Of a stretch of DNA of 41,470 nucleotides, positions 2,686 to 29,271 are shown piece by piece. Below the pieces are notes generated by a model. The model saw only the letters and a list, made by a program, of their open reading frames with translations. It was not told the origin of the DNA and did no database searches. Source of the DNA: a virus; the IMG/VR virus record IMGVR_UViG_3300035182_001336, positions 1 through 41,470 of that record; one strand, given 5' to 3'. A program made the translations under genes and the position numbers. The first letter of the stretch is position 1. Every line of letters starts with the position of its first letter.

Positions 2686-3456
2686 TTATTTAGTCAGGTA
2701 GGCAATTGCGTTGTCAAGCGACTCTTGCCTGCCAGTCACGGCTTCATCTTCGATGAAGATTGGGCGCTTAGGGTAGTGCTTCGTCCAGTCACGCTTAAGC
2801 AGCTCCTCATACGTCTCGCCCCAGTGGAAGATCTCTACGTTAACAAGCTGCTCGACCTTGGAGCGAGGTTGACGACCGGGAACCATCAACGAGTCCTGGT
2901 CATCAATGATGATGACGACTTTCTGGTAGAGGGTAGAGAACCGATGACCATCATCCACAGGCGCAAGGACAAACACAAACCTGTCTGTTGTTGCGCCGTC
3001 TGCGGAAACACCTTTGGTCTTGATGATGTTGCTGACAGTCTCGTAGTCAAGGTTCTCGAGGTCCTGCTGAAACTTCAAGATGCGCCGCTTTATTGGCACG
3101 ACACCTTCATCCTCCTTGACCACGGGCGGCACGTAGGAGAGGCACTTAGGCAAGCGCTTGTACTTGTCCTTCAGCACAGCCACAAGCTCCTGCACGGTCC
3201 GGAACTTCTTCTCATGCTTCGAGTCAACGAAGTAGGTGCTCGTGTCCTCCCAGCCAAACAGCGGCTTGTAGAGCTTGATCACGTCCCTGAGCCCATAGCC
3301 CTTGACCACGATGCAAAGCTTCGAGCGGTTTATAATTCCGGGTTTTGAGCTGGACTTGACTTCGGCCTCGAAGCCCTTTGCCTCGAGCTCCTTAGCGAAG
3401 CGAGACAGGGTTGTATGGGCGCTAGGGCCTGTATCGAGCAGTTCAAGTAGCTTCAT
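2686..3456 (-). CDS. MKL-family putative internal protein, two modules
   Basis: 256 residues of unknown function. The ATG at 3456 is chosen because it overlaps the stop of the gene before it (ATGA) and gives the family N-terminus MKLLELLD. A first helix/beta unit covers roughly residues 15-60. A second begins near residue 125 with ILKFQQDLENLDYETVSNII and continues into beta-rich sequence, so the protein looks like a tandem duplication of the module found singly in smaller relatives (for example 4492-4782). The leader has L-L-D, not the L-L-E seen in most members. It lies between two family members or wedge genes in the coupled operon. A role as an internal or virion-associated protein is inference. 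Confidence 0.75.
   Translation of the reverse strand: MKLLELLDTGPSAHTTLSRFAKELEAKGFEAEVKSSSKPGIINRSKLCIVVKGYGLRDVIKLYKPLFGWEDTSTYFVDSKHEKKFRTVQELVAVLKDKYKRLPKCLSYVPPVVKEDEGVVPIKRRILKFQQDLENLDYETVSNIIKTKGVSADGATTDRFVFVLAPVDDGHRFSTLYQKVVIIIDDQDSLMVPGRQPRSKVEQLVNVEIFHWGETYEELLKRDWTKHYPKRPIFIEDEAVTGRQESLDNAIAYLTK
2687..2692 (-). promoter_or_regulatory. Late promoter motif (TAAATA) before gp6
   Basis: TAAATA on the minus strand lies exactly 6 bases before the gp6 ATG and overlaps the stop codon of the gene upstream. It matches the core of the T4 late promoter TATAAATA read by gp55. The initiation point would fall at or next to the start codon. Confidence 0.5.
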
Positions 3457-4121
3457 GCTGGCATCGCCCAACGCTTAAGATTTGTTCCTGGCTTCAGCGT
3501 GACGCTGTGGATAAAGTTGGTATGCCCGGCCACTTTCTTGTGCTTGTTGCCTGGATCATCGACATACATGGCAACGCCCATGCTCATATCGTCTGGGAAA
3601 TGGTAAGCAGTCGTCCAATGGTTGTCCGACTCTTTTCTTGCGAGCAACAGGATACCGCCCTCAACATCAGTCTCTTGATGCTTAATGACGGTTGGCCCGT
3701 AGTTGTGCCGCATCACCCACTTTGACGCTTGAAGCTTTGTCTCGTAGTCCTCATCAATGAGGTACTGTTGAAATTCTAGCGCTTCTGACCGGGCGCTCTC
3801 TTTAAGCTCTTGTTGCTGCTCCACCCAGTTAGCCAATGGCTGCATCGTCATAAACTCATTTACGTCATTGCAAAATCCACGGCCGCTAGCCGCATTCGTG
3901 TCCCAATAAAACATCGCGACGGTTATCTTGTTGTCGATGCATAAGGCCATGTTAGACAGCGGCTGACCTACATCCTTATCGTTGACCTCTTTCCAATAGC
4001 CTTGCGTTGGGTCAATCTTGACGATTCGAATGTCACTCTCAGGCAAGAGCTCGACGAGTTCTTGCTGAGCCTTTAGGATGGCTGACCGATCAGTTTCTTC
4101 AAGCAGTGACTGCAGCTTCAT
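3453..4121 (-). CDS. MKL-family putative internal protein, two modules
   Basis: 222 residues, beginning MKLQSLLEETD. The start overlaps the gp25 stop codon (ATGA). A helix with ILKAQQELVELLPESD (residues about 14-29) is followed by beta-rich sequence. A second copy starts near residue 115 (EALEFQQYLIDEDYE). The leader carries L-L-E at residues 6-8, which fits the (L/I)-x-E site cut by T4-type prohead proteases, so residues 1-8 may be a removable capsid-targeting peptide. I recognise no enzyme motif. It is coupled at both ends (ATGA) to gp25 and to the paralogue downstream. Confidence 0.75.
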   Translation of the reverse strand: MKLQSLLEETDRSAILKAQQELVELLPESDIRIVKIDPTQGYWKEVNDKDVGQPLSNMALCIDNKITVAMFYWDTNAASGRGFCNDVNEFMTMQPLANWVEQQQELKESARSEALEFQQYLIDEDYETKLQASKWVMRHNYGPTVIKHQETDVEGGILLLARKESDNHWTTAYHFPDDMSMGVAMYVDDPGNKHKKVAGHTNFIHSVTLKPGTNLKRWAMPA

Positions 4122-4495
4122 CGCGAACCCACCTCGATCCTCAAGTCCTTAGTGACATTGAACTCGATGTATTGGATCTTAGCCACGCAGATAAGCCGGT
4201 GGTTGTCCATGTCCGAGATGATGTCGCACTCTTGCAGCCGCACGCGGGGGTCACCGTTGATGACCTTCAGCACGTCCTCCTTCAAGATGTCCGCGGTGAC
4301 GGTGTCGTTCGGCTCGAAGACCAGTAACGGGATGCGCGTGCCGAAGTCAGGCTGCATGATTCGCTCACCCTTGACGGTGAACAACTCGTTGAAGAGGTCC
4401 TCTTGGATCAGCTCGACGTTGTAGAGGGTGAAGCCTTTGCCGACATTCTCGTAGCCTTTGGTGCTGAACCCACGGTAGAACTTGTACTGGCTCAT
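4118..4495 (-). CDS. 25: Baseplate wedge protein gp25
   Basis: 125 residues, close to T4 gp25 (132). It has the GPW/gp25 fold pattern, including RIMQPDFGTRIPLLVFEPND (about residues 45-64), the conserved core that meets the sheath and gp6 in T4-type baseplates. The protein is a wedge component and is thought to nucleate sheath assembly. It is coupled by ATGA to the small MKL-family genes on each side, an arrangement in which accessory genes are threaded between structural ones. The gp25 call is one of the firmest in the operon. Confidence 0.9.
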   Translation of the reverse strand: MSQYKFYRGFSTKGYENVGKGFTLYNVELIQEDLFNELFTVKGERIMQPDFGTRIPLLVFEPNDTVTADILKEDVLKVINGDPRVRLQECDIISDMDNHRLICVAKIQYIEFNVTKDLRIEVGSR

Positions 4496-4782
4496 AAGTT
4501 ATGCCCATGTGCGTAGTCAGCAAACTCTTGGCCGCTGTAAAAATAGACCGAGTGGAAGCTTCGAGTACGGTCATCGATGACGTTTCTAACGATGCATTCT
4601 CGCTCGTTGTACTTGAAGGCGTATAGCAGCATAGGAGCCCGCTCATCCCTGCTCACAGAGAGCTTGAACTTGTTGCCACCTAGGTGCTTGACATCAACCT
4701 CCCACCCAAGGTCAATCAGCTCCTGCTGAAATTTCAGCACGAAGGTACGGCGTTCATCTTCAAAGATGGCTACGAGCTTCAT
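4492..4782 (-). CDS. MKL-family putative internal protein, single module
   Basis: 96 residues, beginning MKLVAIFEDE. The helix FVLKFQQELIDLGWEVDVKH is followed by short beta-like strands, so this is a minimal single-module member. The leader ends I-F-E, which still fits (L/I)-x-E. The ATG overlaps the spike stop codon (ATGA), and the gene's own stop overlaps the gp25 start. Its function is unknown. Confidence 0.75.
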   Translation of the reverse strand: MKLVAIFEDERRTFVLKFQQELIDLGWEVDVKHLGGNKFKLSVSRDERAPMLLYAFKYNERECIVRNVIDDRTRSFHSVYFYSGQEFADYAHGHNL

Positions 4783-6290
4783 CCAATGTATTTAAAATTG
4801 CGAGGCTCGTTCTTAGCAAAGGCTGAGTCCTCATCACGCACCCATGACTCATGCTCAGGCTTGACCATGCCGCCTGCTTTGCCCTGCTGAGGCATCTCGC
4901 CCATGTACGGCACAGAGAGGACTTTATGACCGCTGTAAGCGCTGGACGAGCTCGCACCGCCTGTAACCACGATGGTAGAGTTATTGTCGGTGTCCTTGAG
5001 GTTCATGCTCGCACCGCTTTGCCAGTTGACGCTCGGGAACGCCAGGTTGACACTTGGGCCCTGCAAGTTGACGGAACCCGAAGACTTGACGTTGAAGCCC
5101 TCGCTGCCGCGCACCGTTAGCAACGTGCCTTGCTGGCTCACCGACTGGACCTTGCCGGCTGAATCAAGCTCGATGTTGCTCGTACCCGACCCGCCCTTCT
5201 CAGGCCAACGATAGATCACGTCGAGCGGGTTGCTTGTCTGGACAGTCTCAGCTCCGAGAGCGCCCGCTTGAGGGCCGTTGAAGGTCTTTAGCTTGAGGTC
5301 ACGGCTTGCAGCGATCAACACGTCGGCGTTTGTAGACTTTAATGTCACATCGCACTTGGCGGTCACGTGAACCGAGCGCTCCTCGCTCTTGATGTGGACG
5401 CGCTTGTTCGCGACGATGTTGATGTTCTCGTCGGAGTACAAGTTGAGGTCATTCTTGGCTCGAATGCTGACCTTCGAGTCGGAGTAGACGTAGATCTTGC
5501 CGTTACCTTCGTCGAGCTCGATGTAGTTCTTACCTTCAGCCGTCGAGATGTAGATCCGCTCATTAGTGTCGTCGAGGATGATTTGAGAGCCGTTAGTGGT
5601 TTTCAGCCTGATACGGCAATGCTCATCTACGTCCGACATCACGAACATGTGCCGGCCAGGCGAGGTTAGCGAGACGGCCTGTGAGTCAGCTTTAGCTGGC
5701 TCGAGAGGCTTAGGCGCATAGCCGTTGTCCGTAGGCTTGTTGTTGTTCTTGTTAGATGGGTGGCTGACAGATCGCTCATAGCCGCCTCGCGTTTTGAAGT
5801 GGGTTGACCCCTTCCACAAGCCTGCCTTCTGAAGCTTCTCTTGCGCGTGCGGGAAGTCCTTTTGCGGGTAGACACCCGATTCGTCAATCTCAGACGTAAC
5901 GCCGTCAATGCCTGCAGGCAAGGTCCGGTTGTGCTCAGGAATGTAGACGCAACCGACCCAAAACCGGTTGTCAGGGTTGCCGTCAATGCAACCGACCAGC
6001 ACCTGGGCGCTGTTCTTCGGGATCGCCCAGAAGCCGTAGGCTGAGATGCCTGGTAGGGTCTCCCCCTCTGGCCCCACAGCAAAGTTGGCTGTCACGCCGC
6101 CGAACGGCGACACGTATGTAGCCCAAGGCAAGTCAGCGACATTAAAGCTGTTTGCGTCATAGGCGGGCACGTAAATTTGCAGCCGTCCTTGCTGAGCAGG
6201 GTCAGCGTTATTCTTGACAATGCCTAAGGTCATGCCGTACTGCTTGCCGTAGCCCGGAATGCCTGAGGCGCCGTGGTTGATCTCTTTCAT
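4779..6290 (-). CDS. 5: Baseplate hub/central spike, gp5-like, without lysozyme domain
   Basis: 503 residues. The N-terminal part (about 1-130) resembles the OB-fold of gp5/VgrG proteins, with LGIVKNNADPAQQGRLQIYVP near residue 23. Residues about 210-340 show the repeated short beta-strand pattern (for example GSQIILDDTNERIYISTAEG) of the trimeric spike beta-helix. T4 gp5 has a lysozyme domain between these parts; I see no such domain here, and a GH19 domain occurs instead in the tape measure at 22885-25887. The last 60 residues are a serine- and glycine-rich tail of unknown role. The ATG at 6290 overlaps the stop of the upstream hub gene (ATGA). Confidence 0.8.
   Translation of the reverse strand: MKEINHGASGIPGYGKQYGMTLGIVKNNADPAQQGRLQIYVPAYDANSFNVADLPWATYVSPFGGVTANFAVGPEGETLPGISAYGFWAIPKNSAQVLVGCIDGNPDNRFWVGCVYIPEHNRTLPAGIDGVTSEIDESGVYPQKDFPHAQEKLQKAGLWKGSTHFKTRGGYERSVSHPSNKNNNKPTDNGYAPKPLEPAKADSQAVSLTSPGRHMFVMSDVDEHCRIRLKTTNGSQIILDDTNERIYISTAEGKNYIELDEGNGKIYVYSDSKVSIRAKNDLNLYSDENINIVANKRVHIKSEERSVHVTAKCDVTLKSTNADVLIAASRDLKLKTFNGPQAGALGAETVQTSNPLDVIYRWPEKGGSGTSNIELDSAGKVQSVSQQGTLLTVRGSEGFNVKSSGSVNLQGPSVNLAFPSVNWQSGASMNLKDTDNNSTIVVTGGASSSSAYSGHKVLSVPYMGEMPQQGKAGGMVKPEHESWVRDEDSAFAKNEPRNFKYIG
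4789..4794 (-). promoter_or_regulatory. Possible late promoter motif inside spike 3' end
   Basis: TAAATA on the minus strand is 6 bases before the ATG at 4782, the same spacing as at gp6. It lies within the spike's final codons, so it may be chance. Confidence 0.3.
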
Positions 6291-7942
6291 TTGTTCTCTG
6301 CTTCAGGAACCGCTGCCACCGTCAAATGCTGCTTGAACTGTCCGCCTGAGAAGACATTTTCAACCGTGATGACTTTGTAGTAGTTGGTGTAGTAAAATTG
6401 GCGCTTGCCACCCGGTGCTCGAGGGTCCAACATCCAGATGTTAACCTTGACCCACACGTTCTTTCCACCGTACAGGTCGCCGACTACGCTGCCGTCCGGA
6501 TAGTAAGCCGTACAGTCAAGGAGGTCAAGGTTACCTCGAATCTCAAACTGCTGTTGGAACGAGATCGAGGTTTGGAAGTCGCCGATGGCGTCGGACGCGA
6601 GCCGATAAGACGGCGTGGCGCTATAAGGCGCATTTGTGTAGCCGATTCGGTCATTAGCCGTGACACGGGGCGGCATCCGTACATCATTCTTTTGAAAGCC
6701 AAGAGTCGAGCGTTGGACTTCGACTGTGGTGCCGTTCTGCGTCGTGTCATCTGTAACGATGCTCTCGCTGTAAACACGAGGCCGATCCTTGGGCATGTTC
6801 GCGCTCTGGTTGAACGTGTAGTCAAAGCCGCTTTCAATCTTGACGGGAGTCCACGCTCCTACATTTTGGAACTTGACCTCGTATGAGGTGATGTCGACAT
6901 TTTTGCCGGCTTCAGCAAAGTAGTAGTCAAACACCCACGACTTCTGCATGCCACCCTTGTTGACAGCGATGTGATAGTGGATCAGCACCTGGTCATCCTT
7001 GTAAACGACACGAGGCTGAATCAACGGGATGAAGATGTTCGGATGGCCCTCCTTTTGGAGGCCTGGCTTTGATTCGCCGATCTTCTGCTGTAGCTTGGGA
7101 GAGGCTTGCAGGATCTTTTGGATAAAGGAGCCAATCTGCAGCTGAGGGTTCGAGGTAAACTGGCTCTTCTCACCCGGCGCATTTGAGTTCTTGTTAAGCG
7201 TCTCGATCGCACCCTTGATATCCGGGTCCCATGTGATCTTGTAGACGAGCGGGCGGCCTTGATCCGTGGTGCCTTCGGTCTTATAGATCTGGCCGTAGCC
7301 CTCATTGAGCCTCTTCTCGAGATTGCTCAATGCCTCCTCAACCGTGCCTGCGCTAAAGGAGACAGCGCGCTTCGTGTAAGCGTAGTTCATCGCCGCGCCG
7401 GAGAACGGGTCATCTGTCAAGCCTAGCGTCGCTGCCGTCGTAAAGGTCAGGCCATACTTGCCACCCATCTCTGAGAAGGTAGCCGTTACATTGGGCTGCA
7501 TGACCATGGGAATCAGCTTAGCCGTGATAGTCTCGATCGTGTTGTCAACCTTTCGACCGACAAAGAAGATCTTTAGCACGAACTTCAAGCTGTCAGTGGC
7601 AGCGGCTGTTACCTGATAGTTACTGCGCATTGCGCTCAGCTTCTCGATGAAGGAGAACCCGCCTGGCTCAGTGACTGTCATTGATAGCGCGCCGTAAGGG
7701 ATCAGCATTTCGGTCTTAGCCGAAGCCTCAGACTGTGCTACAAAGTGCACGTCGTCAATTGACTGATGAGCGTCCTTTCGCGTGTTAATCAGCAACGTGC
7801 CGTTAGGCGTGAAGCTGTCGGTGGACTTGTTCTCATCCTTCGTGGTTAGGTCCTGCAGCTTATCCCAGCTGGGATGAGCATGCAGCTCGAAGTGGTAGGT
7901 GTACGTGACGTACACATCGAGCGGATTAGCCGGCACTGACAT
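6287..7942 (-). CDS. Large baseplate hub protein, possibly gp27-like
   Basis: 551 residues, without a recognised catalytic motif. Position is the main evidence: it lies between a gp53-like wedge gene and the gp5-like spike, where the hub protein that carries the spike (gp27 in T4) would be expected. The centre contains a segment starting near residue 330 (VLIHYHIAVNKGG, then FDYYF) that I associate with large structural proteins of T4-like phages, and the C-terminus is beta-rich. T4 gp27 is much shorter (391), so an enlarged hub or an unrelated virion protein is also possible. The start at 7942 overlaps the stop of gp53 (TAATG). Confidence 0.6.
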   Translation of the reverse strand: MSVPANPLDVYVTYTYHFELHAHPSWDKLQDLTTKDENKSTDSFTPNGTLLINTRKDAHQSIDDVHFVAQSEASAKTEMLIPYGALSMTVTEPGGFSFIEKLSAMRSNYQVTAAATDSLKFVLKIFFVGRKVDNTIETITAKLIPMVMQPNVTATFSEMGGKYGLTFTTAATLGLTDDPFSGAAMNYAYTKRAVSFSAGTVEEALSNLEKRLNEGYGQIYKTEGTTDQGRPLVYKITWDPDIKGAIETLNKNSNAPGEKSQFTSNPQLQIGSFIQKILQASPKLQQKIGESKPGLQKEGHPNIFIPLIQPRVVYKDDQVLIHYHIAVNKGGMQKSWVFDYYFAEAGKNVDITSYEVKFQNVGAWTPVKIESGFDYTFNQSANMPKDRPRVYSESIVTDDTTQNGTTVEVQRSTLGFQKNDVRMPPRVTANDRIGYTNAPYSATPSYRLASDAIGDFQTSISFQQQFEIRGNLDLLDCTAYYPDGSVVGDLYGGKNVWVKVNIWMLDPRAPGGKRQFYYTNYYKVITVENVFSGGQFKQHLTVAAVPEAENK

Positions 7943-8307
7943 TAGATGCTTCCCACCGCTGTTGTAGGCACGCCGCCGACCTTGGTGACGCCGAAGGCTG
8001 AAGTAACCTTGTCCTTTGACGGCATGAGCAACATATAACCCGTCACCAACTCAAGCGGGTCGAGGATATCATTGTACTGCATGATGAGCCAGCTTAAACG
8101 TGTATCGCCGTAGAAGGCAAAGGCGAGCAGGTCAGGCCGCCCGACATACTTCTCTTCGAGCACGTAGATGACGTCCGAGAGGTCATGGGCGTTGTCGACT
8201 CTCTCCCACCACTCGACAAAGCGAGCCGAGACCTCCGTCACGCCGCCGCGGGTATAGCGGCCGTTGCGTTGGTTGTATGTCGAGTCCTTGACGGTATAGT
8301 CAGCCAT
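7942..8307 (-). CDS. 53: Baseplate wedge protein, gp53-like
   Basis: 121 residues. The core RPDLLAFAFYGDTRLSWLIM, followed by QYNDILDPLELVTG (about residues 57-92), matches the gp53-type pattern in which the protein names a poorly occupied baseplate position and ends in a short LysM-like strand. T4 gp53 is longer (196). It directly abuts the upstream stop (TAA then ATG) and overlaps the next start, so it belongs to the coupled wedge/hub operon. It is probably a wedge or hub-connecting component. Confidence 0.65.
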   Translation of the reverse strand: MADYTVKDSTYNQRNGRYTRGGVTEVSARFVEWWERVDNAHDLSDVIYVLEEKYVGRPDLLAFAFYGDTRLSWLIMQYNDILDPLELVTGYMLLMPSKDKVTSAFGVTKVGGVPTTAVGSI

Positions 8308-9267
8308 TTAATCTCCTACGGGGCCGGGCGGCACCAGGGGCGTGTCACGGCCGAAGGCTGATGTCGAGCTAGGTTGTGTGACGGTTGACACGCTTTTGGT
8401 GACGGTCTTGCCTACTTCGCTAACCGCTACGTTGGCGCCTGACACGAAGATGTTCTTCAGCACCGGAGGCAAGCTGTTTGTAATCGCCCTGACCGCGGGA
8501 CTATTTAGGGCGGCTGTTCCCAGCGTCCGAGCGATCGTGCCGGCGATCACGCCTGGCACTGTGACCTTGCCACCCCCTAAAGCCGACATCACGGAGGTAA
8601 TGTTGCTCGCGCTAGGAAGAGAGGTCCGCAGCGGATCAGTTCGACCGTAGCCGTTGCCCGTAAGCTCGAACGAGCTTGAGCTCTCATTCTGGCTCTTGGA
8701 GAACTCGCCTTCGCCGCCCAAGCTAAGGCGCCAGGCCCCAGCTGTCACCTCTGCTGCCGAGTACACCTCCTCAACGGTTACGTCAAGCTGGCCGATGATT
8801 GGCATCGGCTGCTCTCCAGTGAAGATGTAGTCAACCTCCTCAGGGAAGTTCCAGCCGTACTGACGGAGGACGACGCGCCGCCCGTCAATGTTGTCATTGC
8901 GGTAGCCATAGATTGTCAGGATCGGCGGCGTGGCGCCCGTGCCCCCAAAGTCAGGCAGGATCCAACGGCGGATCAGGTCAAGGTTACGCGCATTCTGTGT
9001 CGCCTCATCCGTGGTTCGCGAGATGAGCTTGCCTGTGATGGCAAAGGTCCGGCTCGAGGTCTGCTTGTAGCTAACCAAGGCCGTGGGCAGGTGGATGATG
9101 CCGTAGCCTTCATAGCCAGCTTGCCGTGACTCAGACAGCGGCGCGCTAGCTTCAAACACCACGTCGCCGCCGGGGCCGGACAAGCGGATCTTGTAGTCAG
9201 GCAGGTTGGAGCGCTTGCCGGTAATAACTACCGGCTCTTCATTTTCGGTGATGATGTCGTCGTCCAT
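8308..9267 (-). CDS. Probable baseplate tail-tube cap protein (gp48/gp54-like)
   Basis: 319 residues. I chose ATG 9267 over a TTG one codon earlier: it has a strong AGGAGAGG site just upstream and shares one base with the previous stop (TGATG). The middle holds beta-rich sequence typical of tube-cap and tube-initiator proteins (PMPIIGQLDVTVEEVYSA, about residues 155-172). The C-terminal third is rich in Ala, Gly, Ser and Val and looks helical or extended. In T4, gp48 and gp54 close the baseplate hub and start the tail tube. The assignment is inferred from position and sequence character, not from a diagnostic motif. Confidence 0.5.
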   Translation of the reverse strand: MDDDIITENEEPVVITGKRSNLPDYKIRLSGPGGDVVFEASAPLSESRQAGYEGYGIIHLPTALVSYKQTSSRTFAITGKLISRTTDEATQNARNLDLIRRWILPDFGGTGATPPILTIYGYRNDNIDGRRVVLRQYGWNFPEEVDYIFTGEQPMPIIGQLDVTVEEVYSAAEVTAGAWRLSLGGEGEFSKSQNESSSSFELTGNGYGRTDPLRTSLPSASNITSVMSALGGGKVTVPGVIAGTIARTLGTAALNSPAVRAITNSLPPVLKNIFVSGANVAVSEVGKTVTKSVSTVTQPSSTSAFGRDTPLVPPGPVGD

Positions 9268-10097
9268 CAACCTCTCCTGCTAGGCCGCTTCAGCGGCGTG
9301 TTGTGGTGATCAACTTCAAGCGGCTGGACCGGCTTACGAGTGATCAGCGTGTTGTTTGCTCGCGCGCCGACTACGAAGTCGCCGAACACGTCATGCTCGA
9401 ACTGACCGTCATAGTCATCGCCGTAGCCTAAGCCGTCAACGCTGTCGGGATCATAGAACACATCAGTTGGAGCGAGCAGACGGCTATAGTAGTCATAGAC
9501 CGGCAGGGTCGCGTTGCTCGCATGTGGGACATGCTGATCTACCAACGGTGGGGCGAGGTACAGCGATGCGTTTTCATGCTTTGAGAAGCGCAGCTTTGGC
9601 AGAATGACGTTTCCACGGGCGTCATACTCTTGCCGTAGCGGCTTGCGAAGCTCGTCAAACTGCTGGCGATGCTGTCTGTGATCAACGCCGGCGCCGTGCT
9701 GGCGGAGGTCAATCTCAGAGACGAGCTTAACCGAACCCGAGGCGATGTCAGTCAACGCTACGGTGTGCCTATTAAGGTCAGGGTTGGAGCTTTCGAGAAT
9801 GTCAAGGATGACAGAGACAGGCACGACGCGGAAGCTAGGTAGCAGCCTGAAGACTACGTTCGTTTCAGACAGGCCATAACGGCCTTCGTCACGGTAGACG
9901 CCGATCAAGATTCGCTGGCCGAAGAGAGTCCACTGTCTCGCTCCAAGCTCCGGTGCAGGCTGCCAAAGCACCAAGCACTGGTAGTCGTCATGGTTGTCAG
10001 GCTCGTAGATCCAGCAACCTTTAGGTTGAGGCAGCTCCTCGCGAGGAGCGGACAGGTTGTCAAACTCCCCGCCTCCTCCTTCAGGGTCATAACTCAT
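9267..10097 (-). CDS. Hypothetical baseplate-operon protein
   Basis: 276 residues, not recognised. It starts with a glycine-rich segment (MSYDPEGGGGEFDNL) and later has a His/Arg/Gln-rich stretch (HGAGVDHRQHRQQFDELRKP, about residues 135-154) and an aromatic, acidic region near 210-245. There is no signal peptide or membrane segment. The ATG overlaps the stop of the nucleotidyltransferase (ATGA), and its stop overlaps the tube-cap start. Its place among baseplate genes suggests a structural or assembly role. Confidence 0.65.
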   Translation of the reverse strand: MSYDPEGGGGEFDNLSAPREELPQPKGCWIYEPDNHDDYQCLVLWQPAPELGARQWTLFGQRILIGVYRDEGRYGLSETNVVFRLLPSFRVVPVSVILDILESSNPDLNRHTVALTDIASGSVKLVSEIDLRQHGAGVDHRQHRQQFDELRKPLRQEYDARGNVILPKLRFSKHENASLYLAPPLVDQHVPHASNATLPVYDYYSRLLAPTDVFYDPDSVDGLGYGDDYDGQFEHDVFGDFVVGARANNTLITRKPVQPLEVDHHNTPLKRPSRRG

Positions 10098-10786
10098 GCC
10101 GCGTCCTTCTCAACCTTCTGCTTCGCCGACTCTTCAGGCGGCGGCTTGATCATCTTGATCTTGCTAACCAGCAGGTCGAGGATGTCATCATTGACCTTAG
10201 GTCCGTAGAACTTCTTAAAGGCTGCAACCTGCTTGGCTTCGTCCTCGCCGGCGCGCTGGAAAGCTTCACGGATAGTCGTGCCGGACTGGTTACCGTCTCG
10301 AGCATTGCTGATCACATAGTAGGCGCCTGGAGGATCGGACTCGCCGGTCTTCAAGCCGGCGGCTGCATGCGCAAAGGGCACCGGCTTGCCTGACTTGGTC
10401 GGGTACTGCTCGAAGAACTTTGACGACTCATAGCGCTCTACGTCCTTATCGCCGGCTACCATGACCATCACAGTAGGAGCCTTGTAGAGCTCAAGCACCT
10501 CCTTCGGAGCGAAAGCAGGGTTCTTGCACTCGATGATCTTCTCAGGCGAGATGCCGAACAGCTGAACCATGATCTCGACCCGCTCCTCAAAGGTGAACGG
10601 CGAGATGTCACCGTTGCCTGGGTCAAAGTTGGTCTTGTTGGAGGTCGCGATCCACACGGCACCTTCGCCGAACTGCTTGCACAGCTCACGGTAGACCGAG
10701 TAGTGACCCTTGTGGAAAGGCTGGAACCGGCCGCCGTAGATGACGGCTAAGAGCTTGCGCTCTTCGAGGAGGACTGAGAGCTTCAT
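10094..10786 (-). CDS. Nucleotidyltransferase (HIGH superfamily) with MKL leader
   Basis: 230 residues. After a leader MKLSVLLEE, residues 12-30 read LAVIYGGRFQPFHKGHYSV. This is the GRF-x-P-x-H-x-G-H nucleotide-binding motif of NMN/FMN-type adenylyl- and cytidylyltransferases. A later SGTTIRE (about residue 186) corresponds to the second (ISTTxxR) motif. The enzyme should transfer a nucleotide to a phosphorylated substrate such as NMN, but the exact substrate cannot be read. The leader has the L-L-E of the small internal-protein family, so this enzyme may be carried in the head. Some T4-like cyanophages have a similar leader-plus-transferase design (family knowledge, from memory). It is coupled by ATGA to its neighbours. 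Confidence 0.8.
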   Translation of the reverse strand: MKLSVLLEERKLLAVIYGGRFQPFHKGHYSVYRELCKQFGEGAVWIATSNKTNFDPGNGDISPFTFEERVEIMVQLFGISPEKIIECKNPAFAPKEVLELYKAPTVMVMVAGDKDVERYESSKFFEQYPTKSGKPVPFAHAAAGLKTGESDPPGAYYVISNARDGNQSGTTIREAFQRAGEDEAKQVAAFKKFYGPKVNDDILDLLVSKIKMIKPPPEESAKQKVEKDAA

Positions 10787-11133
10787 TGCTTGTTAAACCG
10801 ATCTATTACTTCGCCCATCGTTTTTGTAAAAGCATCATCTAAGATAGTATCGTCGGGGGCTTGCAAAAACTGCTTGAACGGTGACATGATGTACACCGAA
10901 TCTGCTCTAATTGCATATGTGACACTATTGTACAAAGCGGTGCTCATGACAGCGTCAACGGTAGCTTTGTCAATCAGCGTTAGCTGCTTAACAAAGGCTG
11001 GATTACGCCCCGCGGTCACAGGTGAGATGCGGGTTGCAATGTCACCGTGTTCAATTAATGCTTGCTGGCAGCGTAGCACCCACCGCCTCAGCATTAAGTC
11101 GAGTGATGATTCAAAGAGAGCCGTCAACTTCAT
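10783..11133 (-). CDS. MKL-family putative internal protein
   Basis: 116 residues, beginning MKLTALFESS. The helix MLRRWVLRCQQALIEHGDIA (residues 13-32) is the family signature, followed by a mixed strand/helix tail. The leader ends L-F-E, which fits (L/I)-x-E. The start overlaps the paralogue upstream (ATGA) and its stop overlaps the nucleotidyltransferase start. The DNA is more AT-rich than the neighbouring structural genes. Its function is unknown. Confidence 0.7.
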   Translation of the reverse strand: MKLTALFESSLDLMLRRWVLRCQQALIEHGDIATRISPVTAGRNPAFVKQLTLIDKATVDAVMSTALYNSVTYAIRADSVYIMSPFKQFLQAPDDTILDDAFTKTMGEVIDRFNKQ

Positions 11134-11495
11134 TTTCCGTCTCGCTTTACAGGGCGCGCCAGCTCACAGTCCTTGATCACGTAGTCGATGAACTTAGCTT
11201 CGTTGTCGAATTGTCTGCAAGCTAGCATGCAATGTCCATCCTTGACATCGATTTCACCTGACGTGTATTCAGCGACGTAGATTCCTGGGACATAGCCTTC
11301 GTCAACGTGCGGTGCTTGAGACTCAACCCAAATCATGTATGCCTTGATGATCGACCCGCCTGGGACAGGCAGGTACCGCGCCCTCGGCCTTAGCTTCAAG
11401 TCGCGGTGCGGCAACGCTTCAACGAGCAGCTGTTGAAAGCGAAGCGCTGTCTGCCTGAGCGCGAGAGGCTGTTCCAAGAGGGCATAAATACGCAT
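11130..11495 (-). CDS. MKL-family putative internal protein, first gene of the operon
   Basis: 121 residues, beginning MRIYALLEQP; the family helix is TALRFQQLLVEALPHRD (about 15-31). The leader contains A-L-L-E at residues 5-8. It appears to be the first gene of the baseplate operon. A TAAATA late motif lies only 4 bases before its ATG, and no good ribosome-binding site fits in that gap, so a leaderless or very short transcript is likely. Its function is unknown. Confidence 0.7.
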   Translation of the reverse strand: MRIYALLEQPLALRQTALRFQQLLVEALPHRDLKLRPRARYLPVPGGSIIKAYMIWVESQAPHVDEGYVPGIYVAEYTSGEIDVKDGHCMLACRQFDNEAKFIDYVIKDCELARPVKRDGK

Positions 11496-11499
11496 GGAC

Positions 11500-11505
11500 T
11501 ATTTA
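11500..11505 (-). promoter_or_regulatory. Late promoter motif driving the baseplate operon
   Basis: GGTAAATA on the minus strand is placed at the head of the ten-plus-gene leftward operon, 4 bases from the first ATG. It matches the late-promoter core seen before scaffold, protease and sheath. Confidence 0.55.
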
Positions 11506-11618
11506 CCAACTCAGCTAGCATGGCAAAATGCCTCTAAACGGCAAGAGGTGGTAAGATCAACTTGTCTTAACACGGCCTGAGGGATAAGGCTGGTTACTTG
11601 CAATAGGAAACAGATTAC

Positions 11619-12978: not shown

Positions 12979-12993
12979 AAGCAATATATTCTC

Positions 12994-18844: not shown

Positions 18845-18999
18845 CCACCCGAGGACCTGCTGATATACTATACACGAGATGAATACGCTGGCCGTTGGAA
18901 TTCTCATCTCTTCCTGCGGTTCCTCGTCGGGCGCCGCATCATCCTCATGATCGTTGATGCATACGACCCCCGCAATCACAAACTACCTGGACAAACGAT

Positions 19000-21259: not shown

Positions 21260-21346
21260 TGCGAGTCCTTAAGTTTACCGATTGCCGATATGATGATTGT
21301 ACATCATCACGGACCACGGTGAAACAAGAACTTACAAAAAGACGGT

Positions 21347-21373
21347 CACGAAGCTGGCTCAGCTTCGTGTTTT
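21347..21373. terminator. Rho-independent terminator, bidirectional
   Basis: The 8-base stem CACGAAGC/GCTTCGTG (loop of 7) is followed by TTTT on the plus strand. On the minus strand it follows the hub cluster stop and is trailed by GTCTTTTT after a few bases, so it most likely terminates the 22841-21377 operon. Confidence 0.7.
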
Positions 21374-21376
21374 ACC

Positions 21377-21613
21377 TTACCAGAAGACAGGGACCTGCTT
21401 CTTAATGAGGTCATTGACCTCCTTGAACCGGTCATTCAAGAACTCAACCGCACGGTCACGTTCCATCGGCGACATGGCCCACACGTCATTACGTGTGTAG
21501 TGGCCACGGAAGTAGTAACCCATTGACGTGAGCGATTTAACCAACGCTTCATTCTCAGTCTCGAAGGACTTGAACACTCGGGTGATGACCTGTTGGTCAC
21601 CGGAGCCAATCAC
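21377..21613 (-). CDS. Small hub-operon protein, unknown
   Basis: 78 residues. GTG 21613 overlaps the stop of the gp26-like gene (GTGA). The C-terminal helix ERDRAVEFLNDRFKEVNDLI is the most visible feature. The position next to gp26 corresponds to where small hub-assembly genes occur in T4-like phages, so an assembly role is possible. No homologue recognised. Confidence 0.6.
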   Translation of the reverse strand: MIGSGDQQVITRVFKSFETENEALVKSLTSMGYYFRGHYTRNDVWAMSPMERDRAVEFLNDRFKEVNDLIKKQVPVFW

Positions 21614-22428: not shown

Positions 22429-22841
22429 TTGCGTTTTTTTGAGGATGCTTTATTGATGCTGCCTGGCTGCGACTGCTGCCTGACAGTTTGAATCTTGGGA
22501 GGCTTCATGACCTTGTCTCGAGTCATCGCTAGCGACTTGATAGGCATCTTGATCAGCTTCCAAATGGGGCACATGCGAGCGAGCTCGTAAGTCATGAGCG
22601 GTTCATCACCGTTGATCATGCGTGACTCGTTGGCCTGCATCATCCACCGAAGGAAGACCTCCTTGAACGGGATCGGCTTGACAGGAAGGTTGTCAAGGTC
22701 GAGCACAAGCATCTGCATGTTGGTAGACAGCGGCAGCAGCGGGATGGCGCGGTACCGCTCATAAGCGGCTTCGAGCAAGCCAGATGACTTCAGCATGATG
22801 CCTAGCGTCTTGAGGGTCTTAGCGTCTATCTCGGTGTTCAT
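22425..22841 (-). CDS. Hypothetical hub-cluster protein
   Basis: 138 residues with a lysine-rich C-terminus (SINKASSKKRK). A central hydrophobic helix (LLPLSTNMQMLVLDLDNLPV) is visible, without a named domain. It is the first gene of the minus-strand hub cluster and diverges from the tape measure gene; both start regions carry late motifs. It could be a tail-assembly chaperone, as small genes next to tape measures often are (inference). Confidence 0.6.
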   Translation of the reverse strand: MNTEIDAKTLKTLGIMLKSSGLLEAAYERYRAIPLLPLSTNMQMLVLDLDNLPVKPIPFKEVFLRWMMQANESRMINGDEPLMTYELARMCPIWKLIKMPIKSLAMTRDKVMKPPKIQTVRQQSQPGSINKASSKKRK

Positions 22842-22843
22842 AA

Positions 22844-22849
22844 TAAATA
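22844..22849 (+). promoter_or_regulatory. Late promoter motif for the tape measure gene
   Basis: AATAAATAG on the plus strand, 35 bases before the GTG start at 22885. It faces an opposite motif at 22858-22863. Confidence 0.5.
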
Positions 22850-22857
22850 GTCAAAGC

Positions 22858-22863
22858 TATTTA
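22858..22863 (-). promoter_or_regulatory. Late promoter motif for the hub cluster
   Basis: GATAAATAG on the minus strand, 16 bases before ATG 22841. Its core and the plus-strand core at 22844-22849 form a TAAATA/TATTTA pair separated by 8 bases. Confidence 0.5.
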
Positions 22864-22884
22864 TCACCTCCTGGAGTCCACTCA

Positions 22885-25800: not shown

Positions 25801-25887
25801 TCGCTGGTCAACCTCCTCGGTAAGTCACCTGGCTCACGCCGTGGCTACCAGATGGACCCACAAGCCGGAGCAAATGTAGCGCCTTAA
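22885..25887 (+). CDS. Tail tape measure protein with GH19 muralytic domain
   Basis: 1000 residues from GTG 22885, chosen for its CTGGAG site 8 bases upstream; a longer reading to 22795 would overlap the divergent hub gene. The N-terminal ~250 residues are helical and Lys/Ala/Glu-rich, and further coiled regions follow, as in tape measures. Near residues 760-915 is a GH19 (chitinase/endolysin-like) fold: QLSHESGGFSKLF, then KYEGRTDLGNT, GRGFIQLTGKSNYEQ. The acidic residue of HESGG is the expected catalytic glutamate. This would act in peptidoglycan during infection and may replace the lysozyme domain missing from the spike. The tail length it sets is not known. Confidence 0.85.
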   Translation: MADNKDSALKDVENLTRGLRAAATEATRLARATARLEKNMDEASNVVLDKTASALTALAKQSGLLEDSIKEQIKAHKHSPRELAKVIDRLEQKGDSLVKAQEAYKKSLNEIKHKHKQAIKAANGNTAAEAKSRSATVKAASRAHSVFRNQLNDLGISAGVASKNIDALVAEAKANKAAIIRASQDLAKPSARIGKALEGMHSKVQDSIGGFGKFSIALDLAKKAVGELWGQSIRLANKGLVGSMAQMNISALKLRMTAEEFEGLVSANRDMIAVMGGGAEGIAKFESVLSASSVGLEYLGKEGKKAAAVILSGFSKAGFGMMSANKDVSDAYTSNIKALNKQFKLFNGAFGDTAEEFANLYEQQLKSEGLQARLISGDTKTIGLQMQEIMTRTQTLKLMGLNNDQIVEMTKRVDATFNPQQNRQADAQMERAAARQAIASGAQAVQGTDPDISKKLMDFVSSGEMERLQKMSTQDQSTYMVNNVELFKSMAKMRDIITAQRDADGTDASFKGNVFVDRAAAAGKELEKYMGLGKDANSAQARGFDQSKAGQDKLAAASYSNTLSGANGETTELGKAFGRLRDAVDGVTAVMGNPFTSAVSAFGAAMLATSSTVRGAVQNVAGKMLKSATSFSTGVGGLLKNVLGGVMRWVMAFGLDKVLGLAGVGDNKIDETQDDANWNQMTAWEKMQSGTGRGIEKVGSFFGLENITNSAQAGRIDKESAWLKSQGRGATPTSVPQVSAPPAAATPTQSSATNKTNEALMLKALADKGITDPRQQAMLMGQLSHESGGFSKLFEGGAASYFSKYEGRTDLGNTTSGDGYKFRGRGFIQLTGKSNYEQASKALGIDLVGNPDMASDPQIAAQIAAWYVTKDREGGSSADLAANGDFNGLTKSINGGFNGVEDRSNRTMQYLAQVQAGNMPLVTPGQATVTTPVPASAPVSGTSSAPVMTGSRQVSSNNPTLDELQKHTSLLSSLVNLLGKSPGSRRGYQMDPQAGANVAP

Positions 25888-25895
25888 GCGGCGCC

Positions 25896-25924
25896 TAAAT
25901 AGCTCCATTGATCGTGGATAAATA
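25896..25924 (+). promoter_or_regulatory. Two late promoter motifs before HNH/portal
   Basis: TAAATA at 25896-25901 and again at 25919-25924. The first is followed by GCTCCATT, which resembles a start region interrupted by the HNH insertion. The second overlaps the probable original start of the HNH gene. Confidence 0.4.
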
Positions 25925-26523
25925 AGTATAGCCGTTGCTACAATGCTATCATCGATTCAGCTCGACATCGCATTTTAGATGGCTATGCTGAACGTCATCA
26001 TGTGCTTCCCAAATCATTGGGCGGGACTGATGACCAGAGTAATGTGGTTAGCTTAACAACACGTGAGCATTTTATCTGTCACGCCTTGCTTGTGAAGATG
26101 ACCGAAGGGAAGGATAAGTACAAGATGGTACTTGCCTTAGCCAAAATGAAATGCTTTAGCCCTGATCATGAGCGATATGTGAATGCACGGTTATTTGAGT
26201 TTGCTCGACAGCAGCATAGCATAATGCAACGAGATCCGGTGCTTGATGTTGAGCGTCGAAAGAACATTTCTGCTGGTTGGGCAGCAAGGACTAAGAAAAA
26301 GATTCTCTCGGCTGAGCATAAGCGTAAGATCGCTGAAGCTGGTCAAGGTCGGTTACATACCGATGAGTATAAGGCGCATATGTCTCATAGCAAATCCCAA
26401 TACTGGGCCGATAAGAAGGCCTCAGGTGAGTTTTACTCAACACGTGTATGCCCTTGCGGTATAAGCGGTCGAGGCCCTAACATGTCTCGTTATCACTTTG
26501 CAAATTGCAAGGGAGCAAAATAA
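25918..26523 (+). CDS. HNH homing endonuclease, canonical start codon missing
   Basis: About 201 residues if read from the ATA at 25918, as NKYSRCYNAIIDSARHRILD then YAERHHVLPKSLGGTDDQSN (HNH core, about residues 25-45). Homologues of this family usually start with M-N-x-x-Y. The first ordinary start in frame is GTG 26002, but it removes the E-R-H-H of the active site. The C-terminal half has NUMOD3-like repeats (LSAEHKRKIAEAGQGR). The AT-rich DNA is unlike its neighbours. It sits between tape measure and portal, with its stop overlapping the portal ATG. It is a mobile endonuclease, possibly inactive or started at ATA. Confidence 0.7.
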   Translation: MNKYSRCYNAIIDSARHRILDGYAERHHVLPKSLGGTDDQSNVVSLTTREHFICHALLVKMTEGKDKYKMVLALAKMKCFSPDHERYVNARLFEFARQQHSIMQRDPVLDVERRKNISAGWAARTKKKILSAEHKRKIAEAGQGRLHTDEYKAHMSHSKSQYWADKKASGEFYSTRVCPCGISGRGPNMSRYHFANCKGAK

Positions 26524-28199
26524 TGGCTGGTCAATTTGTAGACTTCTGGAGGATTGTCAAGCCCTCCGCACCGAAGACCAGCTACGTTGGTGACCCTGAC
26601 GACTTCAAGCTCTACAGCAACTTCAGCTGGTATAGCAAGGTCATGAAGGGTGCGGGTAGCCGCTTCCAAAAGTACTCGCAGTACAAGAACATGGACGGCG
26701 ACGTGTTCGTCTCTCGCGCGCTTGATCAGATTGCGGCTGAGATGACGAGCGAGGACACAAAGACCAACCTCCCTTTCAAGATTACGTATCAGTCTGAGGC
26801 CAATGAGGAGGTGCCTGAGAACATCGTTGTGACCGTGCGCGCTGCCCTGCGGCACTGGTGTGACATGCAGAACCTGTATAAGCTAAGCTTTGACATCGCT
26901 CGCATGACGGTCAAGTTCGGCGACTGCTTCTTCCGCAAAACCTCTGACTTCAAACTGTGGGAGTATGTTGACCCGTCCGACGTGATCGGCATCCACTTGG
27001 ACAAGGAAACGGGCAAGCCCCAGTTTTACCAAGTGCGTAAGGGCGACAGCTCTGACAAGAACTCCTTCGGTGACGCTGAGATCGTGCCTGCTGCAGGCAT
27101 GGTCCACTTCTCGCTGTCTTCGGGCATCGGCGACAATGGACCGTTCGGCGAGTCCGTCCTCTTTCCGGTCATCAAGGCGTTCCGCCACTTGAGCTTGCTG
27201 CAAGACTCGGTCATCATCTACCGAATCGTGCGAGCCCCTGAACGTCGCGTCTTCTCGATTGACGTGGGCAACATGCCGCCCCAGCGCGCTAAGGCCTACC
27301 TCGAAGCGATCAAAAACGAGATCAAGCAGAAGCGCATGCCTAACGAGTCGGGCGGTCAAGAGAAGATCGACAGCGTCTACAACCCGATGTCCATGGTCGA
27401 AGATTACTTCTTCATGCAAACGGCCGACGGCCGAGGCTCAAAGGTTGACACGCTCTCCGGCGGTGAGAACCTCGGCGAGATCAAGGACCTGAACTACTTC
27501 CAGAACATCTTCCTGCAAGGCCTGCGGATCCCATCGAGCTACATGCGCGGTTCGGATGACAACGGCTCGCAGGTGCAGGACGGTAAGGTCGGCGTCGCCT
27601 ACATGGAGGAGCGCAACTTCTTCAAGTACGTGCAGCGGCTGCAGCGCAACCTATGCCCGTCCTACGACCGCGAGTTCAAGGCTTACCTCAAGTCAGCAGG
27701 CATCCGTGTCGACTCGAACCTGTTCAAGATTGAGCTCACCGACCCGCAAAACTTCGACGTGTACAAGCAGGCCGAAGTCGATGAGAAGTTGATGTCCAAC
27801 TTCAACAATATCAAGGACGTTGAGTTCATCGCCGGGCGCGTTAAGCTGTCGCGCTACCTGGGTTGGTCAGAAGACGAGATCCAAATGAACGAAGAGATTC
27901 TCAAGAAGGAGCTTGGCCTGCCTGCCGATGACATCGACGAGCGCCTGACCATCATCCGCATGATGTACGACAAGAACTGGATCGAGCATCGCCCTGAGCC
28001 GAAGGTTGACGAGTCGTGGGACAACCACGTAGCGGCCTCGAAGCAGCAGGTAGCCCCAGAGGAACAAGAGCCGGCTGAAGACGAAGCCGCGCCGGAGGAG
28101 GAAGCTGAAGAAGGCGGCGAAGAGGAAGCTCCGGATGACGAAGCAGAAGCAGGCGCTGACCTGCCATCCGTCGATGACATGAAGAAGACCTTAGGATGA
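26523..28199 (+). CDS. 20: Portal protein gp20
   Basis: 558 residues (T4 gp20 has 524). The start is ATG 26523, with AGGGAG inside the HNH gene as its ribosome-binding site and a TAATG overlap. The N-terminus (FWRIVKP) and central conserved regions, such as VYNPMSMVEDYFFMQTADGR (about residues 290-309), are typical. It forms the dodecameric vertex through which DNA enters, and with gp22 it initiates prohead assembly. The last ~50 residues are Glu/Asp/Ala-rich, an acidic tail. The stop overlaps an MKL-family start (ATGA). Confidence 0.9.
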   Translation: MAGQFVDFWRIVKPSAPKTSYVGDPDDFKLYSNFSWYSKVMKGAGSRFQKYSQYKNMDGDVFVSRALDQIAAEMTSEDTKTNLPFKITYQSEANEEVPENIVVTVRAALRHWCDMQNLYKLSFDIARMTVKFGDCFFRKTSDFKLWEYVDPSDVIGIHLDKETGKPQFYQVRKGDSSDKNSFGDAEIVPAAGMVHFSLSSGIGDNGPFGESVLFPVIKAFRHLSLLQDSVIIYRIVRAPERRVFSIDVGNMPPQRAKAYLEAIKNEIKQKRMPNESGGQEKIDSVYNPMSMVEDYFFMQTADGRGSKVDTLSGGENLGEIKDLNYFQNIFLQGLRIPSSYMRGSDDNGSQVQDGKVGVAYMEERNFFKYVQRLQRNLCPSYDREFKAYLKSAGIRVDSNLFKIELTDPQNFDVYKQAEVDEKLMSNFNNIKDVEFIAGRVKLSRYLGWSEDEIQMNEEILKKELGLPADDIDERLTIIRMMYDKNWIEHRPEPKVDESWDNHVAASKQQVAPEEQEPAEDEAAPEEEAEEGGEEEAPDDEAEAGADLPSVDDMKKTLG

Positions 28200-28768
28200 A
28201 GCTATCTAACCTGCTCGAAGGAGCTGTCCCCCGGCAACAGCTCTTGAAGTTCCAGCAAGAGTTGGTTGATCAGCTTGATGATGACTTCAACGTGCAGGTT
28301 AGCAGCGACAAGATCCTAATTCGACACCCTTCCCTGAAGCAGCCGATGAAGCTCGACATGAAGGACCCGGAGCATGTCAGATTTTACGCTCAGAAATGCA
28401 GCATTAACCATCCGCTGTTCATTCACGGTGTAGTCGAGATCATCAATGAGCGAATGGCTATTCCTAAGATGAAGGCGTGGCTGCTCGCGCATGGCTTTAA
28501 GCAGCTCACAAATGATGAGAAAGCTGAGCTGTGCGCAAGGCATAACGTGACACTGTATTCAGCTGGCTCGAAGATGGAGAACTTCCATCATGAAGCACAC
28601 GGCAGCGAGCCTCCGATCATCGTGATGCTTGGTTATGACAGCTATAAGAACGTGCATATGAATTACATGCTGTTGCCATTTGATAAGATGCCTCAAAATA
28701 AGTTTCTCCAAGGCCATGACTTTGAGGGCTATGATGACATGGTCAAGAAGCTCGAGAAGATAGTATGA
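28196..28768 (+). CDS. MKL-family putative internal protein, two modules
   Basis: 190 residues, beginning MKLSNLLEGAV. The helix QQLLKFQQELVDQLDDDFNV (residues 14-33) is the family signature. A second unit begins at about residue 90 (MKAWLLAHGFKQLTND). L-L-E at residues 6-8 matches the protease consensus. It is coupled to portal (ATGA) and to the next paralogue (ATGA). Its placement among head genes, before the prohead protease, is the best context evidence that the family has head functions. Confidence 0.75.
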   Translation: MKLSNLLEGAVPRQQLLKFQQELVDQLDDDFNVQVSSDKILIRHPSLKQPMKLDMKDPEHVRFYAQKCSINHPLFIHGVVEIINERMAIPKMKAWLLAHGFKQLTNDEKAELCARHNVTLYSAGSKMENFHHEAHGSEPPIIVMLGYDSYKNVHMNYMLLPFDKMPQNKFLQGHDFEGYDDMVKKLEKIV

Positions 28769-29271
28769 AGCTGACTAACCTGCTTGAGCAAACCGTTACC
28801 TCGAAGGATATGCTCACTGTTCAACAAGCTGTTGTGGATGACTTGCATGATGACAGCTGGGAGATTAGCTTGTCAAAGGGTGCATTGACAATGAAAAAGG
28901 GCGACGTCAAAGTAACATTCAACTTTGAGAGCCGTACTATCACCTCAGCTCAGCCTAAGCTCGTCTACGAGGTTGACTTTGCTGACCATCCCGAAGCGGC
29001 CTTGCTATCAGTGGCTGCCCTACTTGACCTGAAGCATGAGTTGGTTAAAAGCTTAAAAGGCTACAAATACAGCTTCATCATCAATGACGGCGACGGGACG
29101 ATTTTGCTAATCGCTGAGAAGCGCATCCACCCATCGACATTTGAAGTACGCTTTGAGTTTGAGTATGACGGTGAGTGGATAGCTAATCATGCTGATAAGT
29201 CAGGTGACCGAACAGCTAGTTTTACCTCACTTGAAGACACCATGGTGTGGGTCGAAGAGTGGGAAGGATGA
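28765..29271 (+). CDS. MKL-family putative internal protein, two modules
   Basis: 168 residues, beginning MKLTNLLEQTV. The helix MLTVQQAVVDDLHDDSWEIS and strands form one module. A second helix, LLDLKHELVKSLKGYKYSF (about residues 91-109), leads into more strands. L-L-E is at residues 6-8. It overlaps the paralogue upstream (ATGA). No enzyme motif is visible. It is likely an internal head protein, by leader and context (inference). Confidence 0.75.
   Translation: MKLTNLLEQTVTSKDMLTVQQAVVDDLHDDSWEISLSKGALTMKKGDVKVTFNFESRTITSAQPKLVYEVDFADHPEAALLSVAALLDLKHELVKSLKGYKYSFIINDGDGTILLIAEKRIHPSTFEVRFEFEYDGEWIANHADKSGDRTASFTSLEDTMVWVEEWEG

Follow-up and report, generated by a model that had tools for sequence, protein, structure and literature searches.

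The window analysed here comprises 41,470 nucleotides (nt), positions 1-41,470 of the IMG/VR record IMGVR_UViG_3300035182_001336, and is a piece of the genome of an uncultured T4-superfamily jumbo phage. Eight of its open reading frames (ORFs) begin with a short leader, M-K/R-L/I-x-x-L/I-L/F-E or, in one case, a relative of it, and the sequence evidence makes it likely that this is a portable capsid-targeting leader acting like the capsid-targeting sequence (CTS) of phage T4. The leader is found at true N-termini well beyond chance, it stands on different bodies in relatives of the phage, T4-like leaders replace it on homologous enzymes, and its end matches the maturation site of the major capsid protein gp23. 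Two IMG/VR contigs overlap the window at 99.99% and add up to about 183 kb of this phage; counts for 183 kb refer to these combined contigs, G002 among them. The gp23 of the window is 51% identical to the major capsid protein of the Xanthomonas phage XacN1 (tblastn).

The leader at the N-terminus

A preliminary description of this DNA had listed the eight ORFs, and their translations confirmed the coordinates, the ATG starts and the N-termini claimed for them. Six lie on the minus strand (2686-11495) and two on the plus strand (28196-28768 and 28765-29271); FQQ denotes a second common motif, LKxQQxLID.

2686..3456, minus strand: 256-residue leader protein, FQQ motif internal; leader MKLLELLD at 3433..3456, with Asp at residue 8 and LLE at residues 3-5
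3453..4121, minus strand: 222-residue leader protein with two FQQ motifs; leader MKLQSLLE at 4098..4121
4492..4782, minus strand: 96-residue leader and FQQ protein; leader MKLVAIFE at 4759..4782
10094..10786, minus strand: leader and nucleotidyltransferase (CTP_transf_like, NMNAT-like; PF01467 6.6e-9), not an FQQ paralog; leader MKLSVLLE at 10763..10786
10783..11133, minus strand: 116-residue leader and FQQ protein; leader MKLTALFE at 11110..11133
11130..11495, minus strand: 121-residue leader and FQQ protein; leader MRIYALLE at 11472..11495
28196..28768, plus strand: 190-residue leader and FQQ protein, immediately 3' of the portal gene; leader MKLSNLLE at 28196..28219
28765..29271, plus strand: 168-residue leader and FQQ protein, immediately 5' of gp21; leader MKLTNLLE at 28765..28788

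The leader sits at the exact N-terminus, on the ATG, in all eight ORFs, and in seven of them Glu8 is combined with L/I at residue 6, giving an (L/I)xE ending; the exception is 2686-3456, which has no Pfam or PHROG match at E 0.1. The codons are mixed at residues 3, 6 and 7 (CTG, CTC, CTA, TTG and ATT at residue 3), and thus the conservation is at the protein level and not the result of a recent DNA copy.

In order to compare the leader with chance, internal in-frame start codons were used as the control. The strict motif M[KR][LIV]..[LIV][LIF]E follows 6 of 178 N-terminal start codons in the window (57 ORFs) versus 0 of 542 internal ones (p=2e-4), and 13 of 750 versus 0 of 2605 in the 183 kb (p=3e-9). 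A scan for [LI]xE in the 183 kb placed the Glu at residue 8 in 19 of 242 N-termini, with 1.6 expected (p=6e-9), 12 of these being M[KR] leaders and 7 miscellaneous starts; the signal at residue 9 was weaker (6 versus 0.8 expected, p=4e-3), and no other position from 6 to 23 gave a p below 0.1. These counts are conservative because the ORF picker loses 10783-11133 and gp23 under longer antisense ORFs. An origin by chance or as an ORF artefact was rejected on the internal-start-codon control. When ATGs alone were counted, the motif was again concentrated at N-termini in the window phage (12/347 versus 0/1038 internal, p=5e-8), in G012 (9/847 versus 1/1784, p=2.6e-4) and in the Agrobacterium phage Atu_ph07 (22/1422 versus 2/2472, p=2.5e-8), where the residue-8 count is 23 with 6.5 expected. 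Unbiased mining of N-terminal patterns returned mostly the QQ motif in the window phage and other patterns in other phages.

Bodies, leader replacement and the maturation site

The preliminary description had placed the leader on proteins of unrelated length. The sharing of the leader stands, but the unrelatedness does not, since seven of the eight listed proteins have LKxQQxLID, which follows the leader by a few residues or, in 2686-3456, is internal, and are therefore mostly paralogs. An FQQ profile finds 23 ORFs in the 183 kb at a domain E of 0.0014 or below, a radiation within the window phage; 14 of them have an M[KR] leader (2686-3456 included) and one has the variant MELLQSLLE, figures that are a census and no test, as the seeds of the profile came from this family and leaders were assigned by eye. 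Two paralogs in the window are of the remaining kind:

33735..34118, plus strand: FQQ paralog without M[KR] leader
36256..36663, minus strand: FQQ paralog without M[KR] leader

Over 14 family members, picked for their leaders, mean pairwise identity is 57% in the leader, 53% in the FQQ helix, 17% in the linker and 14% in the rest. An AlphaFold model of 4492-4782 (mean predicted local distance difference test score, pLDDT, of 66) has the FQQ helix at residues 10-24, followed by strands, and leader residues 1-7 below pLDDT 50 and without secondary structure. The best PDB match in a fold search had E=0.064, none reaching 0.001. The profile matched nothing in the T4 record at E<=0.01, so it shows no homology to the bodies of T4 internal proteins, and nothing in the records of eight relatives, four with gp23 at >=75% identity and four at 50-57%. 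Among the records searched, only the contig of L004 has FQQ matches beyond the window phage, and the sole matches to 28765-29271 in a scan of viral contigs were the two contigs of the window phage itself.

The motif M[KR][LIVMFWY]..[LIVMF].E, with 10783-11133 added by hand because the ORF picker misses it, is found on 15 proteins in the 183 kb, comprising 12 FQQ proteins, one NMNAT-like protein and two other bodies. Besides 10094-10786, the same phage has two non-FQQ leader ORFs, at G002:23799-24272 and 55460-56182. A scan with gp23 gave 70 loci, 30 of them at >=75% identity, the phage's own two contigs among these, and in relatives MKLxx(L/F)(L/F)E is found on NMNAT-like, Nudix, phosphoribosyltransferase (PRTase) and orphan proteins. 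The NMNAT-like nucleotidyltransferase bears the leader in the window phage, in L004 (73% identical) and in G012, a Nudix protein bears it in G012 behind a GTG start (PF00293 6e-16) and a PRTase in G013 (PF00156 2.8e-10). Clustering of 78 leader proteins from the window phage, G012, G013, Atu_ph07, L004 and other gp23 loci (BLASTP at 1e-3 and the FQQ motif) resolved 41 body families, though some of the single-member ones will be chance hits.

Homologs of these enzymes differ in the leaders that they bear. The Nudix leader is MKLVDIFE in G012, and MKLEELFE and MKLQELFE in the orthologs of L346 and L350, whereas the ortholog in L347/L348 starts MFKKTFKQFILE, which is T4-CTS-like, in place of the MKLxx leader. 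L347 also encodes a 90-residue protein starting MKKTFKQFINE, the body of which BLASTP does not align with the Nudix body at E 10. The PRTase leader is MKLTELVE in G013, and its homologs start MITFKQFLSE (G012), MTTFKQYLSE (L251) and MKTNFKLFLEE (L259). In the T4 record the N-termini of IPII and IPIII read MKTYQEFIAE, for which targeting of cargo to T4 heads is proven (PMC9026906, PMC3012670). MKLxxLLE itself differs from MKTYQEFIAE, but homologous enzymes carry T4-like forms, and the occurrence of both leader types on the same enzymes is the strongest indication at hand that they do the same job. Five T4-like leaders in L272 were considered as independent cases but were found on mutual paralogs and left uncounted.

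That the phage encodes gp21 and that its gp23 has LLE at the predicted maturation site had also been claimed, and both were borne out: gp21 matches Peptidase_S77 at 1.7e-27 and the gp23 site, read from the window's own sequence, is RKYLLE/TAGADV, with the cut predicted after residue 42. In an alignment of other phages the column of this site holds LLE in RAS14, LTE in G012 and G013, LAE in XacN1, LME in Atu_ph07, LRE in CBB and LDE or VTE in further phages. The N-terminus of gp21, MSDKLVLIE, has LIE at residues 7-9, as in T4 gp21. T4 Alt is processed at ITE-6 according to PMC5694885, a precedent for a leader of such shortness.

The NMNAT-like protein 10094-10786, with PF01467 (6.6e-9) and TIGR00125 (2.6e-9) both above cut-off, contains a nucleotidyltransferase domain with GRFQPFHxGH, which NMNAT models match far below their curated cut-offs, and has homologs in other phages. 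Comparison of the best 80 viral and the best 80 cellular (bacterial or archaeal assembly) loci indicates a viral extension, with a median of 25 residues between the start and GRFQP in the viral loci versus 7 in the cellular ones. Before GRFQP, [LIVM]xE is present in 65 of 79 viral versus 1 of 80 cellular loci, although the longer viral stretch gives more room for a chance [LIVM]xE and the 65 cases are not independent because the viral loci hold only few leader types. The lone cellular locus is L354; it and L353, NMNAT-like genes with phage-like starts in Pelagibacter-type metagenome-assembled genomes, are probably phage contigs binned into these assemblies.

Virion proteomics of other phages offers an analogy. 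Twelve of the 23 leader ORFs of Atu_ph07 fall within coding sequences (CDS) 31-76, for which PMC6102473 gives 29 proteins identified in virions by mass spectrometry, a cluster-level figure (the paper counts 131 virion proteins in total), and CBB_299 (MRFSQITE) is among the CBB virion proteins in Table 4 of PMC5259590. A likeness of CBB_299 to Atu_ph07 CDS 43, seen by eye, was discarded (BLASTP E=0.21).

Proposed role and alternative explanations

We propose that the leader hydrophobics at i, i+3 and i+4 would dock late-made cargo onto the assembling prohead core, that gp21 would cut after the Glu of (L/I)xE, as expected for gp23 after LLE, and that the freed body would remain in the head with the DNA, probably to be ejected into the next host. 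The cargo would consist of the expanded family of small FQQ proteins and of single enzymes such as the NMNAT-like 10094-10786. The leader, its enrichment, modularity, replacement and gp23-site match are read from the sequence, and it is from these that we infer docking to the core, packaging, cleavage and ejection, including packaging and cleavage of the leader proteins of the window phage. The preliminary description had likewise taken the leaders for capsid-targeting sequences; the body families, the T4-CTS-like replacement, the LxE shared with the gp23 site, the presence of gp21 and the viral extension favour this, and what it has to concede is that the listed proteins are mostly paralogs and that one leader ends in Asp.

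A number of results weigh against capsid targeting by a portable leader. Within the window, 10094-10786 is the only protein on which an argument from unrelatedness can be built, and 8 of the 23 FQQ ORFs in the 183 kb have neither an M[KR] leader nor the variant. The leader MKLLELLD of 2686-3456 ends in Asp at residue 8; in T4 IPIII, Asp at the cleavage position allows targeting and inhibits processing (PMC9026906), so that this leader need not be clipped there, and its LLE at residues 3-5 would be an alternative cleavage site. The excess of motif ATGs is weak in G013 (5/631 versus 2/1887, p=0.013) and not significant in XacN1, RAS14, T4, CBB, G004, G005 or G008, and the residue-8 scan is not strong in G012 (p=0.09) or G013 (p=0.03). 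Genome-wide counts of T4-like leaders (class B, defined by a regular expression) are weak as well, with p=0.02 in XacN1, 0.04 in G012, 0.06 in the window phage and 0.24 in T4, where the two N-terminal hits, not a significant count, are IPII and IPIII. In XacN1, the ORFs at 53927-54784, 190362-191417 and 238329-239063 have T4-CTS-like starts. A third replacement, MKLAILLE in G012 versus MAELKTFIAE in the window phage, is between proteins of only 31% identity; the L345 Nudix ortholog starts MLLAEIKKE, with no clear leader, and the window-phage homolog of G012 174999-175829 starts MKLVELSGSVK, with no recognisable one. Among NMNAT-like homologs 16 of 81 are without a recognisable leader, and the one in G013 starts MKLTELKD. 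As to the analogy with virions, 11 of the 12 Atu_ph07 leader ORFs are adjacent and mostly paralogous and the mass spectrometry match is at the level of the cluster only; CBB_42 (MKFEELNE), which has the motif, and CBB_321 (MRYNQLQE), annotated as structural, are absent from the CBB virion list of PMC5259590.

The leader could be no more than the conserved N-terminus of the FQQ paralogs, retained by shared ancestry and without a function of its own; seven of the eight window examples do have the FQQ helix, and leader and helix are the two conserved parts of the family. It is also found, though, on NMNAT-like, Nudix, PRTase and other non-FQQ bodies in the window phage, G012 and G013, several of the eight relatives without FQQ matches have leaders, the FQQ ORFs that do without it tell against a fixed family N-terminus, and in the 4492-4782 model its residues lie outside the confident part. 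We regard shared ancestry alone as very improbable, and as the whole story it was rejected on the eight relatives without FQQ matches and the 41 body families. Still harder to credit, to the point that we give it almost no weight, is an artefact of translation starts, with ATG AAG CTN favoured for initiation and LLE arising by chance: leader genes do lie more often just behind a late-type box, but residues 6-7 and Glu8 are beyond any usual start context, the codons are mixed, and among other genes whose box lies at this distance the proteins begin MKRG, MARG, MTDT, MILN and the like.

Docking of the leader to another late structure, such as baseplate, neck or tail, or its use as a chaperone or membrane tag, uncut in either case, would suit the six leader genes that lie among the baseplate genes (gp25-like and gp5-like). 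We consider this unlikely, given the match of the leader ends to the gp23 maturation site, the T4-CTS-like leaders on homologs and the two leader genes placed between portal and gp21. A variant closer to the T4 scheme, in which the core-bound leader is generally not removed and remains on the body inside the head, draws on the Asp of 2686-3456 and on the T4 IPIII Asp variant, described in PMC9026906 as targeted and poorly processed; Glu8 with L/I at residue 6 in seven of the eight window leaders makes it a rather improbable general rule.

Compared with known systems, the leaders under our capsid-targeting reading resemble most closely the CTS of T4 IPI, IPII and IPIII, a removable, short N-terminal (L/I)xE leader on otherwise different proteins in a phage with gp21 (PMC9026906, PMC3012670). 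They differ from it in the consensus MKLxxLLE, eight residues with the Glu right after the hydrophobic pair, and in standing on a paralog family and metabolic enzymes in the window clade, with packaging and cutting predicted. The T4 Alt propeptide, as described in PMC5694885, is likewise very short and N-terminal, its ending being xTE, and a possible ADP-ribosyltransferase (ART)-like cargo, recognised by motif, might add to the likeness, whereas the ART assignment of G002:23799 consists of the motif and a sub-threshold PARP match only. In phiKZ and SPN3US the prohead protease also removes N-terminal propeptides of packaged proteins, but according to PMC5694885 these are mostly long, with sites A/S/G-x-E and not LxE. 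Virion-packaged NAD+/ADP-ribose enzymes have been predicted by context, with Nudix, ART and NAD+ synthesis cargo, in PMC9503650, which infers packaging from gene neighbourhood and fusion, whereas in the window phage a sequence tag would mark the cargo. Atu_ph07 shares an eight-residue leader, M[KR][WL]xxLxE, but often has Trp at residue 3 and other bodies, namely paralogs with a YRGM motif, one with a zeta-toxin-like kinase domain. No report of an MKLxxLLE-type leader in the clade of the window phage was found in the part of the open-access literature that was searched.

The head cargo and injected proteins of jumbo phages are largely unknown, and the survey in PMC9503650 infers packaging from neighbourhood and fusions. 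If the leader marks cargo, packaged proteins would be predictable by sequence search, metagenomes included, the leader would serve as a tag with which to load proteins into phage heads, and the NAD+-related enzymes and the FQQ family would be flagged as proteins delivered at the start of infection. A wider proposal, to which we give even chances, is that T4-superfamily jumbo phages use the leader as a general, exchangeable barcode for packaging, with at least two interchangeable dialects, MKLxx(L/F)(L/F)E and the T4-like FKQFLxE, so that the cargo ejected by uncultured phages could be read from sequence; the cargo of this clade would then include an NAD+/nucleotide kit (NMNAT-like, Nudix, PRTase and perhaps ART) and, in the window phage, about two dozen FQQ proteins, plausibly anti-defence effectors that enter the host along with the DNA.

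Gene context, late promoters and related observations

The six minus-strand leader genes lie among baseplate genes and the two plus-strand ones between portal and gp21; the window also encodes a late sigma factor (phrog_12791 7.5e-28) and a tail sheath.

4118..4495, minus strand: gp25-like baseplate wedge subunit, flanked by two leader genes (phrog_261 9e-20)
4779-6290: gp5-like baseplate protein (phrog_13211 1.4e-19)
4789..4794, minus strand: TAAATA (core of a T4-type late promoter), beginning 12 nt before the start codon of 4492-4782
11500..11505, minus strand: TAAATA, beginning 10 nt before the start codon of 11130-11495
26505-28199: portal protein (phrog_213 3.1e-87)
29343..29978, plus strand: gp21 prohead protease (Peptidase_S77, as above; phrog_207 head maturation protease 3.3e-60)
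31001..31909, plus strand: protein at the gp22 (scaffold) position, so placed by position and acidic, Glu-rich composition only; sole match phrog_10922, function not assigned, 7.1e-20
31933..33288, plus strand: gp23 major capsid protein (phrog_138 major head protein 8.7e-87)
34334..34573, plus strand: 79-residue ORF without a Pfam match at E 0.05; its leader is the variant MSIFTTLLE, and a TAAATA box begins 11 nt before the ATG

Over three genomes, TAAATA lies 9-14 nt before the ATG in 8 of 34 genes with either leader class versus 48 of 1046 others (p=2e-4), an enrichment that is consistent with late expression of the leader genes. At the narrower spacing of 11-12 nt, the box was counted 15 times in the window phage, 17 in G013, 15 in XacN1 (some in terminal repeats), 8 in RAS14 and 6 in G012, with no case in T4 or CBB. 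Among first-ATG genes of the window phage, a Shine-Dalgarno-like motif is found in 0 of 13 with the box versus 53 of 200 others, the box filling that space; this suggests that late mRNAs are leaderless in this clade.

Further observations concern leader genes outside the window. In Atu_ph07, positions 39484-50592 (L136, L139) hold 11 adjacent leader genes, 10 of which combine M[KR]WxxLxE with a YRG motif, the sole basis for calling them ART-like, and one leader gene there has a zeta-toxin-like kinase domain (PF06414 1.5e-14). At G002:23799-26059 a leader gene with an ART-like motif (LYHQTRKENVESILANGF), for which the PARP match has E=0.049, below the cut-off, and the single-sequence structure model a pLDDT of 35 and is unusable, is immediately followed by a 596-residue protein with the T4-like leader MTFKTFLSE. 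In AT-rich T4-like phages (L013:9968-14800, L043, L046, L053) proteins of 1204 to 1615 residues begin with the NMNAT-like domain and its leader, such as MNELSQYLVNQILLEE, and these large genes are followed by genes that by eye resemble terminase and portal. Several small ORFs in L008, L012 and other AT-rich contigs start like MKVSQLRKLIREEAKKALNEG, possibly another leader dialect.

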